Shown here: positions 56,284-63,868 of the stretch, in pieces
Numbering within the stretch: position 1 is the stretch's first letter
Layout of the letters: each line of letters starts with the position of its first letter
Assembly: GCA_030447545.1 (NCBI GenBank)
Contig: JAUJOV010000001.1
Coordinates: 124,001 to 188,000, forward strand
Direction of reading: 5' to 3'
From: Sphingomicrobium sp.
GTDB lineage: Bacteria; Pseudomonadota; Alphaproteobacteria; Sphingomonadales; Sphingomonadaceae
DNA: 64,000 bases
Translations under genes and position numbers: made by a program
The notes under the pieces: generated by a model
Databases searched by the model: none
What the model was told of the DNA's origin: nothing
Seen by the model: only the letters and a program-made list of their open reading frames with translations

Positions 56284-56927
56284 TCGTCGGTCCGTTGAGG
56301 GCGCTCGCGCTCGCCGCGCTTCTGCTCGCCCGCGCTTGCCGGCAGGACGCCGCGCCTGCGCCTGCGCCCGAGTACAACCCCGAAGAGGCAGGCACGGTCG
56401 ACCACGCGATGTGCCTGCTCGGCTTTGCCGCAGTGCCGCTTCGCGAGGTCTCGACCGGGCATCACCTGGTCGAAGCCACGCTCAACGGTGAGAAAGGAAG
56501 CTTCGTCCTCGATACCGGCGCCAACGCGACCGTGCTCGACGCGGGGCACGTCCAGCGCTTCCGCGTCGGCGGGCGCTCCGGCGGCTCCGGAGGCGCGATC
56601 GGCGTCGGCGGCGGCGGAAGCGCGAACCAGGTCGGGATCACAAGCCTGCGCGTTGGCCCGGTCGACATCCGGCAAAGGCGGATCGTCACCACCGATCTGT
56701 CGCAACTGCTCGGCGTGATGAGCCGCATCACCGGGCGCACCGTCTACGGCATCATCGGGCAGGACGTGCTGCAGGAGCACCGGGCGATCATCGATGTGGC
56801 GCGCCCTATGCTTTATCTGATGGAGCAGGACCGGGACCCGGCGCCGGTGCCTGCGGAACGGTGCCGCTCGGCGGAGAGCGAAGGTGAGTCGGCTCCGGAG
56901 GCGGCACGCGGGCGGTCACGCGAGTAA
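56280..56927 (+). CDS. retropepsin-like aspartyl protease family protein (GTG start)
   Basis: HHLVEATLNGEKGSFVLDTGANATVLD...VYGIIGQDVLQEHRAIIDVARPMLYL; overlaps the DUF885 stop. Confidence 0.8.
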   Translation: MIVGPLRALALAALLLARACRQDAAPAPAPEYNPEEAGTVDHAMCLLGFAAVPLREVSTGHHLVEATLNGEKGSFVLDTGANATVLDAGHVQRFRVGGRSGGSGGAIGVGGGGSANQVGITSLRVGPVDIRQRRIVTTDLSQLLGVMSRITGRTVYGIIGQDVLQEHRAIIDVARPMLYLMEQDRDPAPVPAERCRSAESEGESAPEAARGRSRE

Positions 56928-57032
56928 ATCGCGTGACGTCAGACCTGTCGCGACGCCGGAGGTTTTCCGGCGGCGCGCAGGCTGGCTGGCCTTCGCCGTC
57001 TCTACGCGCTGCTGACGATTGCTGCGCAATCG
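56915..57032 (+). repeat. two-hairpin element, copy A
   Basis: GTCACGCGAGTAAATCGCGTGAC ... CTCTACGC ... CGATTGCTGCGCAATCG. Confidence 0.75.
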
Positions 57033-57057
57033 CTGCGCTGCGCTCGGCGGCTCCGGC

Positions 57058-59909
57058 TTAGCGGGGCTGGATCTCCTCGATCGGCATTCCGAGCTTCTCG
57101 AGCTGCGGCCGGATCTTCGCCGCGTCGCCGACCACCACCCACACAAAGCTTTCCGGAGTGACCGCCGCGCGAATCGCCTCGTCGAGCGTCGAGCGGGTCT
57201 GCGCCCGGTAGAGGCCGGCGAGACGCTCGAAATAATCATCGGGGCGGCCGAGGAAGTCGTTGGTAATCATCCCCTGGAGCACCGCGGCCGAAGTTTCGAA
57301 CCGGCCGGGGAGCTGCTGGATGTTGTTGGCGAGGATGCGCGTGAGCTCCTCGTCGGTGGTTCCCTTGACCGTCAAGAAGTCGCGGTAGTTGGTCGCGAGC
57401 GCCATGATCGAGTCGGCGGTGCGGTCGGCCTGGACCGGCGCACTGACGACATAGGGCACCGCCTTCTCGTTGAGCGAAAGGCCTCCGCGAACGCCGTACG
57501 ACCAGCCCTTGGTCTCGCGCAGGTCCATGTTGATGCGCGACAGGAAGTTGCCGCCGATCACGTCGTTGGCGCTGGTCAGCGCAGTGACGTCGCTGCGCGG
57601 GTCGACGGGAGTGATCTGGCCTCCGACGATCACCGACTGTGGCGACTGCGGGCGGTCGATCAGGACGATCTTCGGGCTCGCAGGGCGCGAGGGCGCGGCC
57701 GTGAACTGCTTCTGCCCGCGTCCGGCGGTCGGCGCCTGCCACTGGCCGAAGCGCCGGTCGAGCTCGGCCCTGATCTCCTCGAGCGGGCGATCCGAGACGA
57801 CGAAGATCTCGAGATTGTCGGGCCTGAGCCAGGACTGCTGGAAGGCGACGAGATTGTCGCGCGTGAAGCCCTGGACGGTCCTCTCGTCGCCGATCCCGGT
57901 GTTCGCATAGGGGTGCGCTGCGCCGTAGAGCAAAACAGGAAGCGCCCGGCTCGCGAGGCCGTTCGGGTCCTTCAATTGCTGCGCGATGGCGGTGAGCGTC
58001 TGGCTGCGCACGCGCTCGACTTCTGCCGGGGCGAAGGCCGGATTGCGCACGATGTCCGCGAGAAGGTCGAGCGACGGGCCGAGGTTGGCGCTGAGCGCCG
58101 ACAGGCCGACGGTGCTTCGGTCGGCCGAACCGCTCGCGCTGATCTCGGCGCCGAGCCGCTCCTCTTGTTCCGCGATCTGCTGCGAGGTGCGGGTGGTCGT
58201 GCCCTCCTGTAGCAGGGCGAGGGTCATGTTCTGAAGGCCGCGCGCGGTCGGAGCGTCGGCCGCATAACCGGCGTCGAACGTCAGAGCGAGCTGCGTGACC
58301 GGCACCGCGCTGCGCTGCGCATAGTGGAGCTGGACGCCGTTCGACAAGGCGACATGGCTGACTTCGGGGAAGTCGAGCGCCTGCATCCCCCCGAGCGGCG
58401 GAATCTCGCGCTTTTTCGTGACCCTGATCCGGTCGGAGCCCTTGCTGGCCTTTTGCGCGACCGCCTTCGATTCCTGGTAGGGTGGCCGCTCGCCGGGCTC
58501 GAGCCGCACGCGAAATGCGGGGTTGCCCAGCCACTGCGCCATGGCCGCGCGAACTTCGGCGGGCGTGGTGGTCGCGTAATTGGCGAGCGTCTTGCGGTAG
58601 AAATCGCTGTCGCCGAACGCGAGCACCTCGCCCTCGGCCAGAGTGACGGCCTTGCCGCCGAACCCGCCGGCCTGCTCGAGCGCGCGTATTCGCCCGCCGG
58701 CCTCGCGCGTCGCGGCGCGGGCGACCTCGTCGGCAGTCGGCCCTTCGGCGATATATGGCGCGATGATCTCGTCGAGCCGCCGCTCGACCAGCGCGACGTC
58801 CACCCCAGGCTTGACCGTCGCCTGGGCGAAGAAGATGCCGACCCGCTGGTTGGGATAGAGGCCCGCGCTGACCGAAACGGCGATCTTCTCGTCGCGCACC
58901 AGGATCCTGTCGAGGCGCGAGCTTGCAAGCCCGCCGAGCACCGACCCGCCGATGTCGAGCGCGACCAGCTGGCGGTCGAGCAGGCCCGGCATCGGCCAGT
59001 AGCGCGACACGGTGGTCGTCGCGACGCGGTCCTTCATCACCACCGACGTGGGCGCGGCAAGCACCGGCACGCTCGCTTCGGCGGGCACGTTCTGCGGCCC
59101 GCGCGCGATGTCTCCGAAATATTTCTCGACCAGCGGCCGGGCGGTCGCCGCATCCACGTCCCCGGCAAGCACCAGCACCGCATTGTTCGGACCATCAATG
59201 TCGCGGAACCAGTCGCGCACGTCGGCAAGGCTCGGAGCGTCGAGGTCGGCCATCGAGCCGATGACGGTGGCGGTACGGGTGGCCCTCGGGGAAGAGGTTC
59301 TTGAGCACCTCCTCGAACACCAGGCCGCCCGGCCGGTTGTCGCCCTGGCGCTTCTCGTTCTGGACGACGCCGCGCTGATTATCGAGCTTCGCCTGGGTGA
59401 CCGCGCCGAGCAGATAGCCCATCCGGTCGCTCTCCATGAACAGCGCGCGCTCGAGGGCTCCAGTGGGCACCGTCTGGAAATAGTTGGTGCGGTCGAAGTG
59501 GTCGTGCCGTTGTAGTCGGTCGCGCCGATCTGCTGGAGATATTCGAAGAAGTCGCCCGGCAGGTTTCCGAGCCGTTGAACATCAGATGCTCGAACAGATG
59601 GGCAAAGCCGGTGCGGCCCTTCGGCTCGTCCTTGGAGCCGACATTGTACCACATGGCGACGCCGACCACCGGCGCCTTGCGGTCGGTGTGAACGAGCACG
59701 GTGAGCCCGTTGGCGAGCTGGAACTGCTCGTGCGGGATCTCGACCTGGCTGATCAGCTGCGGGACCGGCGCGGGCTCGGCGGGAGCCGGCGGCGCCTCAG
59801 CGAGCGCAGGCGGGGGCGGAGCAACTTGCGCGACCTGGGGCGCCGTCGCGCAGGCGGCGAGGATCGAGGCGCTGGCGAGCAGCAGGGCCAGGCGGTTGCG
59901 GCTGATCAT
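57058..59909 (-). CDS. M16 family (insulinase/pitrilysin-like) metallopeptidase, frameshifted at 59.26-59.57 kb
   Basis: N-terminal lipobox LLASASILAACA; FQLANGLTVLVHTDRKAPVVGVAMWYNVGSKDEPKGRTGFAHLFEHLMFNGSE (HxxEH); second domain VHLHYAQRSAVPVTQLALTFDAGYAADA-like. Confidence 0.9.
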
Positions 59910-60056: not shown

Positions 60057-61919
60057 ATGACCAAGACTGACCGCATCAGAAATTTTTCGATCATTGCCCA
60101 TATCGACCATGGGAAGAGCACGCTGGCCGATCGGCTGATCCAGCGGACGGGGGGGCTTAGCGAGCGCGAGATGAGCGCTCAGGTGCTCGACAACATGGAT
60201 ATCGAGCGCGAGCGGGGGATTACGATCAAGGCGCAAACCGTCCGCCTCGAGTGGAACGGGTACGAGCTGAACTTGATGGATACTCCTGGGCATGTCGATT
60301 TTGCCTATGAAGTTTCCAGGTCGCTGGCGGCTTGTGAGGGTGCCCTTTTAGTCGTGGATGCGGCGCAGGGGGTTGAGGCTCAGACTTTGGCCAATGTCTA
60401 TGCGTCGATCGAGCATGATCATGAGATCGTGCCGGTGATCAACAAGATCGACCTTCCCGCCGCGGATGCGGAAGGGGTTCGGCAGGAGATCGAGGAGATC
60501 ATTGGGCTCGATGCGTCGGGCGCGGTGCTTGCCTCCGCGAAGACCGGGATCGGGATCGATGAGGTTCTGCAGGCGATCGTCGACAAGATTCCGCCGCCCA
60601 GGGGCGATGCGGACGCGCCGCTCAAGGCGATGCTCGTGGACAGCTGGTACGACCCGTATTTGGGCGTGGTCATCCTGGTGCGGGTGATCGACGGGTGCCT
60701 GAAGAAGGGCGCGCAGGTGCGCTTCATGGCCGCGGGCACGACGCACCTGGTCGATCGCGTGGGCTGCTTCCGGCCCAAGATCGAGCAATTGGGCGAGCTC
60801 GGCGCGGGCGAGATCGGCTTCATCACCGCGCAGATCAAGGAAGTCGCGGAAACGCGGGTCGGCGACACGATCACCGACGCGAAGCGGCCGGCCGCTCAGG
60901 CTCTGCCCGGGTTCAAGCTGGTCCAGCCGGTGGTGTTCTGCGGGCTTTTCCCGGTCGATGCGGCCGAGTTCGAGAAGCTTCGCGAGAGCCTGTACAAGCT
61001 CAGGCTCAACGACGCCTCGTTCAGCTTCGAGATGGAGACCAGCGCGGCGCTTGGCTTCGGCTTCCGCTGCGGCTTCCTTGGCCTGCTGCACCTCGAGATC
61101 ATCCAGGAGCGGCTGACTCGCGAGTACGACCTCGACCTCATCACCACCGCTCCGAGCGTCGTCTACAAGATCCATCTGAGCAGGAGCAGGAAGGACCGCC
61201 CTTCGACAGGCTCGGGACGAACGGAGGAGGGGGAGCACGAAAGCGGCGGCAGCATCATCGAGCTGCACAACCCGGCGGATATGCCCGACCCCAACCGGAT
61301 CGAGACGATCGAGGAGCCGTGGATCGAGGCGACGATCTATGTGCCGGACGAATATCTCGGGCCGATCCTCAAGCTGTGCCAGGACCGGCGCGGCGTGCAG
61401 AAGAACCTGACCTATGTCGGCAGCGGCAGCCACCAGCGCGCGCAGATCACCTACGAGCTGCCGCTCAACGAGGTGGTGTTCGATTTCTATGATCGGCTGA
61501 AGTCGATTTCGCGGGGCTATGCGTCGTTCGACTATCACCAGATCGGCTATCGCGAGGGCGACCTCGTCAAGATGAGCATCCTGGTCAACAACGAGGCGGT
61601 GGATGCGCTGAGCATGATCGTCCACCGCGGCAACGCCGAGGCCCGCGGCCGGGGCATGTGCGAGCGGTTGAAGGACCTGATCCCGAGGCATTTGTTCAAG
61701 ATCCCGATCCAGGCGGCGATCGGCGGGAAGGTCATCGCGCGCGAGACGATCGCGGCGCTGCGCAAGGATGTGACGGCGAAATGCTACGGGGGTGATGCGA
61801 CGCGCAAGCGCAAGCTGCTGGAGAAGCAGAAGGAGGGGAAGAAGCGGATGCGGGAGTATGGCTCGGTGAGCATTCCGCAGGAGGCGTTTATTGCTGCCCT
61901 GAGGATGGGGGAGGAGTGA
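60057..61919 (+). CDS. lepA: elongation factor 4
   Basis: [39 protein letters not shown]...[28 protein letters not shown]...[22 protein letters not shown]. Confidence 0.97.
61197..61227 (+). repeat. half REP-like element inside lepA
   Basis: CGCCCTTCGACAGGCTCGGGACGAACGGAGG, translated as [11 protein letters not shown]. Confidence 0.8.
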
Positions 61920-61939
61920 AGCACCGAGCCTAAGGGAGG

Positions 61940-62056
61940 CTTTGCGAAGCAAAGGCGAGCTTAGGCGTAGAGATGCGGAACTCCCGGCCGGCGCGCGAGC
62001 GAGCGGCCTAAGGCGCGCTGCGAGACGCGTCCGACGTCACGAATTTACTTCGTGAC
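61940..62056 (-). repeat. two-hairpin element, copy B (inverted relative to copy A)
   Basis: GTCACGAAGTAAATTCGTGAC ... CTCTACGC ... CTTTGCTTCGCAAAG on the minus strand. Confidence 0.75.
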
Positions 62057-62239
62057 AATGTTTATTTGTTGGTTGTTCCCTGACTTACGTCGCTGATCGC
62101 ACGGTGCGTGGCTTCGTTCTTCAGGCTTGTCATGATTTTCTCCCTGAGCATGGTGATGCTGGGAAAACTGCGCATTGACCCTTTCGGAACAGCAAATCGC
62201 TCTGTCGCGATCCTTTCTAAAGTCTTCCGAACGTCGCTG

Positions 62240-62734
62240 TCATTCACGATATGGCGAATCTCGCCTGGCCTTAGAGCGCCGGCGCCTGCGATGCGCGAGG
62301 CCGGCGCAGCCTTGGATGTGAGTCTTGCCGTCTGTGGTCCAGACATATGCCCCGAACCGCGGCGTCAACTGAAGGAGCGTGACCGCCTGCCGCGAGAGAG
62401 GCACAAGGTGCGAGCGGGCGGACTTCGTCTCTTCACTACCCAGTACCCACGTCCCTCGCTCCAGGTCGAGCTGGGCCCACCGCATGGACGCAACCTCAGT
62501 GCGCCTCTGGCCGGTTAGGAAGAGCATCCGAACGAAACCGGCATAAGGGTAGCCAAGTAGTTCAGAGGCTTTCCATGCGCGGGAAACCTCCTCCATATCG
62601 AGGAAGCGGTCGCGCGGAGCCTCATCCTCTCCAGTTTTCCGATCACAGCGCCGACAAACCCTTGAGTCCTCGGTTGCGCTCCGCCCGGAGGGCTGCGCTG
62701 GGGTTCGAATGCCTCCGCCCGCGTCGGCCGCCAA
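62240..62734 (-). pseudogene. tyrosine recombinase/integrase fragment
   Basis: ASELLGYPYAGFVRMLFLTGQRRTEVASMRWAQLDLERGTWVLGSEETKSARSHLVPLSRQAVTLL; lacks the C-terminal HxxR/Y region in frame. Confidence 0.7.
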
Positions 62735-62737
62735 TGG

Positions 62738-63868
62738 TTACAGCGAGATGCTCGGGCTGTAGCGCATTTCGTGCTGGGCGATGGTGGCGCGGACCACGTT
62801 CTGCATCAGCGCCATTCGGGTCGGGAGAGGAACCGAGGTCTTCCTGATCATCACCGCGACCGAATAGCTGCGCCCGTCGGGGGCGGTGAGGATGCCGATG
62901 TCGTTGTACCCGGCCTGGGTGGCGCCGAGCACCTGGCCGGTGCCGGTCTTGTGGCTGAGGCTCCAGCCGGCCTTGAGGCCGCCCTTCAGCCTGTTCGGGC
63001 CGGTCCTGGTCTGGCTCATGATCGACAGCAGGCGCGCGGTCGAGGCGGGCGAGAGCAGTTCGCCCCGCTTCAGGCGCGCGAGCGCATTGACGATCGCGCT
63101 GGCCGAAGCGCCGTCATAGGGGTCCTCGAGGTAGCGGTTGAACGCCGCGCGGCGGACCGTCATCGGAAGCGCGTTCCTCGCCTGGTAAAAGGCATTGCCG
63201 ATCGAATAGCTCTGGGTCCAGGTGAGGCCGGCGATGCGCGCCTGGAGCGAGCGCTCGCCGTTGTAGAAGCGGATCGCGCCGAGGCCCTTGGTACGGATCA
63301 TCGCGCGCACCGCTTCGGGCCCGCCGACCGAGCGCATCAACTTGTCGTTGGCCGTATTGTCGCTCTTGGTCAGAGCTTCGCTCATCAAATTGGAGAGGCT
63401 CGTCGTATAGCCGCCACCGAGGATTTTGGAGCGGATCGGCTGGTGGAACAGCGTCAGGTCGCTTCGCCCGAGGCTAACCCTATCGGTCAGACTCACGCGG
63501 CCTTTGTCGACCGCGTCCAGCGCGGTGATCGCCACCCACAATTTGCTGACGCTCTGCTGCGGCGTGAGCACGGCTCCGTTCCAGTCGGTGGCCCAGCCCT
63601 CGTTGACCGACTTTACCGCGATCCCGACGCTGCCGTTGAAGCCGCGGCCGAGCTGGTCGATGCGGTTCGCGAGGTAGGCCGGCGCCTGCGGCGTGCGGAC
63701 TGCTTGAACCGGGCGCGGCGCAACCGGCCGCGGCTGCGCCGCGGGCTGCGCGGCGGCGGACCCGGCCATGCTCTGGAGAACCACGCCGGTCCCGGTTTGC
63801 CCAACCGAAAACAGCGCCATTCCAAGGCTGATCCAAAGCGACGTCATGACTGTACTTTCCCCCACCAA
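62738..63868 (-). CDS. class A beta-lactamase-like serine hydrolase
   Basis: TPQQSVSKLWVAI (SxxK), LTKSDNTANDKLM (SDN), SLSHKTGTGQV (KTG). Confidence 0.85.
   Translation of the reverse strand: MVGESTVMTSLWISLGMALFSVGQTGTGVVLQSMAGSAAAQPAAQPRPVAPRPVQAVRTPQAPAYLANRIDQLGRGFNGSVGIAVKSVNEGWATDWNGAVLTPQQSVSKLWVAITALDAVDKGRVSLTDRVSLGRSDLTLFHQPIRSKILGGGYTTSLSNLMSEALTKSDNTANDKLMRSVGGPEAVRAMIRTKGLGAIRFYNGERSLQARIAGLTWTQSYSIGNAFYQARNALPMTVRRAAFNRYLEDPYDGASASAIVNALARLKRGELLSPASTARLLSIMSQTRTGPNRLKGGLKAGWSLSHKTGTGQVLGATQAGYNDIGILTAPDGRSYSVAVMIRKTSVPLPTRMALMQNVVRATIAQHEMRYSPSISL

Follow-up and report, generated by a model that had tools for sequence, protein, structure and literature searches.

A dispersed palindromic repeat of fixed orientation behind gene ends in Sphingomonadaceae

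Two copies, A and B, of a dispersed chromosomal palindrome of the Sphingomonadaceae, about 110-170 bp long, are present in the window (the whole 64-kb stretch of DNA analyzed here), and exactly these two were convincing in a search of the window with the covariance models R1 and R2. The copies belong to a real, clade-restricted and previously unnamed family of gene-end palindromes, locked in orientation and REP/BIME-like if that class is taken broadly. The stems of the element change sequence while pairing is kept, and the element usually stands directly behind a stop codon, including those of core genes in several genera. We give an even chance to its acting, as a REP-like gene-end palindrome, as a boundary or protector of transcript 3' ends.

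Architecture and covariation of the element

Each copy comprises a core and, next to it, a longer and variable third hairpin, H3 (Table 1). The core is composed of two hairpins, H1 and H2, and a closing stem, P0, with almost no linker, and is regarded as a three-way junction because the bases preceding H1 pair with the bases following H2 as P0. The closing stem covaries, occurring as GCC/GGC, ACC/GGT, CAC/GTG or CGC/GCG and in the extended forms GAGCC/GGCTC and AAGCC/GGCTT. The consensus of H1 is GTCACGnnR-GTRAA-YnnCGTGAC, with the GTRAA loop found in 107 of 110 distinct cores. The consensus of H2 is GTCRG-W-nnnn...nnnn-CYGGC, the foot of which starts with GTCRG and a single bulged A or T, ends with CYGGC and contains a fixed T.G at the second pair (169/169 in one set and 100/100 in another). 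The outer stem of H1, the GTRAA loop and the H2 bulge with its T.G pair are candidate marks, probably read by a protein.

Table 1. Coordinates of the two copies of the element and their hairpins in the window
Feature	Position	Strand	Basis
Copy A, whole element (P0-H1-H2-P0'-H3)	56910..57057	+	R1 and R2 model matches
Copy A, H1, GTCACGCGA-GTAAA-TCGCGTGAC	56915-56937	+	sequence, fold
Copy A, H2, GTCAG-A-CCTG...CAGG-CTGGC	56938..56986	+	fold, core comparison
Copy A, H3, long hairpin	56988..57056	+	sequence, R1 match
Copy B, whole element	61920..62061	-	R1 and R2 model matches
Copy B, H1, GTCACGAA-GTAAA-TTCGTGAC, 8-bp stem	62036..62056	-	sequence
Copy B, H2, GTCGG-A-CGCG...CGCG-CCGGC	61987..62035	-	sequence, fold
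Copy B, H3, CTCTAC in internal loop, tip CTTTGC-TTC-GCAAAG	61920..61986	-	sequence, R1 match

A sequence-only reading of the window had described copy A as a 118-bp element of two hairpins separated by a variable middle. All the words it named were found where it placed them, including H1, CTCTACGC at 57000-57007 and the tip of H3, CGATTGC-TGC-GCAATCG, ending at 57032. The length proved too short, since the R1 match spans 56914-57059 in copy A (147.7 bits, with A being a seed sequence) and 62057-61912 in copy B (97.4 bits, with B outside the seed), and the H3 arms reach the neighboring stop codon. There are three hairpins and the closing stem P0, and the supposed variable middle is hairpin H2, which itself covaries. 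A second element proposed at about 61.94-62.06 kb was borne out in its words and their order; its minus-strand location had not been mentioned in the sequence-only reading. The R2 core model matches copy A at 56910-56992 (53.5 bits) and copy B at 62061-61981 (39.7 bits).

Copy A is flanked on one side by the stop of an aspartyl-protease gene on the plus strand (Pfam Asp_protease_2) and on the other by the stop of a minus-strand M16 peptidase gene (Pfam Peptidase_M16/M16_C). As previously proposed, the TAA of the aspartyl-protease ORF (56925-56927, with the ORF ending at 56927) falls within the H1 loop, and the outer 3' end of H3 adjoins the M16 peptidase stop codon (57058-57060, minus strand). 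H2 of copy A is the long variant, with the one-base bulge and the fixed T.G second pair, and its H3 has the internal loop CTCTAC/CTC. In copy B, the outer end of H3 is set against the lepA stop codon (61917-61919), which immediately precedes the element; CTCTACGC lies at 61972->61965, and a T-rich tail is present. The alignment of A with B has a mean column identity of 73% over 213 columns, flanks included. The folding energy of copy A is -71.7 kcal/mol (z = -4.7 vs shuffles), and the advantage over shuffles is moderate for copy B, folded as its own strand (z = -2.8). Beyond copy B, an integrase-like fragment on the minus strand (62240-62734; TGQRRTEVASMRWAQLDLERGTW...) and, next to it, a beta-lactamase-like ORF (62738-63868) were assigned by eye.

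The claim of stem variation with pairing maintained, alongside conserved loop and linker words, was upheld in two alignments. In counts biased by a core detector that demanded near-complete pairing, 14 of 22 pairs vary on both sides among 34 diverse cores (covariation score 0.386 vs 0.108 shuffled), 4 changed cells are one-sided vs 101 two-sided, and the signal is lost when partners are slid by 1-3 columns (score ≤0.057); a 40-core alignment gave a score of 0.322 vs 0.101 shuffled, with 14 two-sided pairs out of 23. Two H1 pairs escape this detection bias because the database pattern had N at their positions, and they were Watson-Crick in 175 of 180 cases vs 139 expected. H3 covaries strongly (e.g., columns 163-168 with 310-313) in alignments fitted to R1, which lean towards the model. 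R1 is an RNAalifold consensus model made from six copies of equal H1 length from the genome of the window; equal-stem subsets were used for the models because MAFFT misaligns 8- and 9-bp H1 stems. A compensatory change in place is seen between two copies behind rpoA (L096 and L123), in which CGGCGC/GCGCCG in H2 is replaced by CGACGC/GCGTCG.

A second subfamily (loci L255-L257, L260, L278-L281 and L283 in genomes G100, G063 and G134, which are of other genera) keeps H2 and the overall plan with H1 swapped for, e.g., GCGGG-CAAAG-CCCGC; its H3 is comparable and contains GAGTC in the internal loop. Behind rpoA, H2-like pieces with exchanged partners were also observed. The swapped H1 and the exchanged H2 partners mean that the element is modular.

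Copy number, range and placement at gene ends

A covariance model was built, as the sequence-only reading had advised, and sphingomonad genomes were searched, yielding many more copies in which the order of parts holds. In the genome of the window, R1 gave 22 matches at E ≤ 0.01, a few of them weak hits to the antisense strand of copies already counted, leaving about 20 copies; a nucleotide search with copy A found at least a dozen relatives there. Within the genus, 36 of 37 genomes were positive for R1, as were 38 of 251 genomes and 20 of 96 genera in a family sample with 12 candidates scored per genome; among 24 genomes from other families of the order, none was positive. The exact H1 pattern occurred in 87 stretches among 84,980 species genomes, and the records behind them are all sphingomonads or unplaced Alphaproteobacteria or Proteobacteria MAGs. 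Among 385 alphaproteobacterial genomes, only two Sphingomonadaceae, including the genome of the window, were positive for R2, with 14 candidates scored per genome; absence across the class outside Sphingomonadaceae is thus a provisional conclusion. Sphingomonas daechungensis, in which one match (L127) is identical in sequence and score to a match (L076) of genome G010, appears to belong to the same genus.

Copies within a genome have a median identity of 0.69-0.74, with a maximum of 0.82 in the genome of the window and up to 0.88 in a row of three copies in genome G007. Local clustering was found in G007 and G023 and was not significant in G018, G258, G266, G100 and the window's own contig C3. 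In the G007 row (L210, ~1825.4-1827.7 kb), three consecutive genes each have a copy at their 3' end, all in one orientation, and their UTRs each begin with AGCACCGAG; the identity of 0.88, the highest within a genome, suggests local spreading. Other arrangements include a direct tandem of two copies separated by 27 bases (L004/L035, G000:C63:260-580), head-to-head pairs with H1 facing H1 about 20-30 bases apart in G005, G007 and G031, and, in the genome of the window, H3-like stretches behind stop codons with no recognizable H1-H2 core (L011, L018, L006). The H1 pattern also occurs in four IMG/VR 'viral' contigs (L176-L179), which may be host DNA, and the 56-nt core of one Sphingobium copy matched no plasmid or phage record. 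A RAYT/Y1 transposase was rejected as the mobilizer in this genus, since a single genome out of 23 contained Y1_Tnp and that of the window did not; genomes with 17 copies are among those lacking it. Spread would be old and partly local, and no transposase belonging to the element was found.

Read in the sense of the abutting gene, the order is stop codon - H3' - H2' - H1'. Of 144 contexts, 112 have the H3-side gene directed towards the element, with a median core-to-stop distance of 61 nt (quartiles 51-70), about the length of one H3, and the orientation of the gene on the H1 side is free (73 vs 67). All but 2 of the 148 cores fall outside the genes called by a simple home-made codon-based finder that misses some genes; at L038, it missed rpoA, which ends at ~C81:64201, with the element at C81:64203-64346. 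Exclusive placement at convergent 3' ends, which the sequence-only reading had raised, was rejected, as 51 convergent vs 58 co-directional contexts were counted where the abutting gene is encoded on the strand opposite to the element.

The element abuts rpoA, sspB, rplL, rpoD, nusG, rpsA, rpsI, mreB, recA and nrdB, two tRNA genes, and genes encoding a HerA helicase, an L,D-transpeptidase, urocanase, M13 peptidases, an M16 peptidase, LepA and TypA. At the 3' ends of rpoA, rplL, lepA, rpoD, nusG, rpsA and sspB, it was found in different genera or species, and many related genomes have the same genes without it. The rpoA site is shared by Sphingobium, Novosphingobium, Sphingopyxis, Chakrabartia, an Erythrobacteraceae MAG and the genome of the window, with rplQ downstream of rpoA in all three loci checked. 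Among the rpoA copies, H1 is nearly unchanged, the differences in H2 are compensatory and H3 varies freely. In many element-free genomes of the family, the spot between rpoA and rplQ is occupied by other palindromes or terminator-like hairpins, which is expected if a strong hairpin counts more than its sequence. Those at L328-L377 are unrelated to one another in different sphingomonads, being of the CCCCGGCGAAGGCCGGGG type, a CGTC-type repeat or T-tract terminators.

Wobble pairs and candidate roles

Compensatory change alone does not indicate which nucleic acid is read, and wobble pairs were therefore counted in stems with ≥85% Watson-Crick pairing. The element stems contain 40 G.T and 49 A.C among 3571 cells, whereas 28 tRNAs encoded at the same loci gave 19 vs 1 in their acceptor and T stems (Fisher p = 3e-5). 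Because the wobble pairs have no strand bias, ordinary one-strand RNA selection is not the main force; of the two marks of a one-strand structured RNA, compensatory change and an excess of G.U over A.C, the second was not found in these stems. In co-directional copies, G.T 14 and A.C 9 on the plus strand correspond to G.U 9 and A.C 14 in the gene sense; an alignment fitted to a plus-strand model could still mask a slight preference in that sense. That G.U does not exceed A.C in the gene sense counts against a purely RNA-level role, which predicts a G.U preference, and the missing bias is not an alignment artefact, since a plus-strand model fit should favor G.T.

The remaining options are a function of both strands, DNA structure, or renewal of the palindrome by template switching, a process established in bacteria. 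Mutation, rather than selection, may account for some of the conserved pairing. Palindrome correction acting alone would erase the fixed bulge and the T.G pair, and their persistence therefore speaks for recognition of the asymmetric H2 foot by a reader. Of the structured RNA or single-stranded DNA element originally proposed, the RNA part is disfavored by the contrast with tRNA stems; a structure that is used as DNA, is used on both strands or is maintained through DNA-level copying fits better.

In the proposed boundary role, transcription of the abutting gene would produce nested perfect hairpins right behind the terminating ribosome. These would act as a 3' boundary, limiting read-through into the neighbor, and would shield the upstream message from 3' exonucleases; in operons such as rpoA-[element]-rplQ, expression could then differ between the upstream and the downstream gene. 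A putative protein would read the invariant parts of H1 and H2, and stem perfection would come partly from selection and partly from DNA-level copying within the palindrome, proposed because wobble intermediates are as scarce on one strand as on the other. A canonical intrinsic terminator was rejected for most copies, as a T-rich tail (≥5 T among the first 10 bases) follows H1' in 10 of 92 copies and TTTT occurs in the first 20 bases in 2 of 92. A full terminator between rpoA and rplQ would require a separate rplQ promoter.

A serious though less likely alternative is that the element works at the DNA level, as a cruciform or folded single strand that a protein such as a recombinase, an HUH nuclease, or a nucleoid or topology factor binds or cuts, and is merely tolerated at gene ends. 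The unbiased wobble pairs, so different from those of tRNA stems, and the near absence of one-sided changes agree with this, as do the local clusters in two genomes and the resemblance of the fixed bulge and T.G pair in the H2 foot to hairpin recognition marks. However, a symmetrical cruciform would not predict a fixed orientation right behind the stop codon, a strand-specific single-stranded substrate should show G.T above A.C on that strand, and Y1/RAYT transposases are missing from 22 of 23 genus genomes, including those with 17 copies. We consider unlikely the more specific proposal of a sphingomonad-specific module, read as folded DNA by a dedicated protein, that would mark the ends of core-gene transcription units and spread by template-directed copying without a transposase; this protein would use the H2 bulge and T.G pair and the H1 GTRAA loop in a three-way junction or cruciform.

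That the copies are functionless remnants of a once-mobile MITE-like element seems less likely still. Their dispersal, lineage-specific expansion, mosaic H1 and H3 modules and local clusters, with the identity reached in G007, point that way, but pairing survives extensive change of stem sequence, a site is common to several genera with H1 of the rpoA copies almost constant while H3 diverges, and the genome of the window lacks near-identical recent copies. A trans-acting or cis-regulatory RNA made from the plus (H1-H2-H3) strand, with a GNRNA-type pentaloop, is very improbable: the conserved GTRAA loop, the fixed U.G wobble in H2 and the covarying three-way junction would suit it, yet this strand runs antisense to the abutting gene, a plus-strand gene precedes the element in no more than about half of the copies, no promoter-like match was found near copy A or copy B, and the wobble counts give this strand no advantage.

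Comparison with known repeats and structured elements

The family is multi-copy, extragenic, palindromic and located behind 3' ends, and is in this wide sense REP-like. A literature search found no report of the sequence or of a comparable sphingomonad element, and in Rfam scans at the gathering threshold and at E ≤ 1, only tRNAs exceeded the gathering score. As judged by eye, the core words GTCAC..GTGAC and GTC..GGC do not fit the integron attC core sites RYYYAAC/GTTRRRY. RIME1 and RIME2 of rhizobia and ERIC are 100-150 bp elements with two palindromes; the sphingomonad element resembles them in size class, multiple palindromes, intergenic position and restriction to one bacterial group. The H1/H2/H3 plan and the locking to stop codons are not known from RIME or ERIC.

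Sphingomonads are important degraders and plant associates whose 3'-end biology is little described, and a family of fixed orientation behind rpoA, rplL, nusG, rpoD, rpsA and lepA offers a handle on how their transcription units end and are separated. The check for wobble asymmetry could also sort RNA selection from DNA-level palindrome upkeep in other 'covarying' bacterial repeats. In other bacteria, intercistronic hairpins confer segmental mRNA stability, as in the malE-malF REP and the puf operon, and rpoA-[element]-rplQ likewise places a strong hairpin between co-transcribed genes, where we infer a similar function.

The REP/BIME, GTAG and CGTC super-families are dispersed intergenic palindromes behind 3' ends, as is the sphingomonad element, and consist of single hairpins of 20-40 bp (Di Nocera et al., 2013, PMC3733652). 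Their neighbors are co-directional or convergent, with the stop codon sometimes supplied by the repeat; CGTC families occur mostly in alphaproteobacteria, have no dedicated transposase, and are built of units with 8-9 bp stems that almost invariably start with A-T pairs and end with a CCA-like tail (PMC3733652). Unlike these single hairpins, the sphingomonad element has three hairpins on a three-way-junction plan, a fixed orientation and a fixed distance to the stop codon, and its stem starts with GTCACG and has no CCA tail. Identity with CGTC-tagged REPs was rejected, as H1 starts with GTCACG and H2 with GTCRG, the latter having no A-T start; a CGTC word does occur at the H1/H2 junction, and the CGTCATT...AATCC pattern was not found in the window. 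Identity with GTAG REP/RAYT systems was likewise rejected, given no GTAG tag at H1 or H2 and the single Y1_Tnp-positive genome in the genus. The L17 downstream element is structured and lies behind rplQ, with uncertain orientation (Weinberg et al., 2010, PMC2864571); the sphingomonad element shares with it a structured character and a place in the 3' region of a ribosomal-protein gene, but stands behind rpoA, and the L17 family was unmatched in the Rfam scans.
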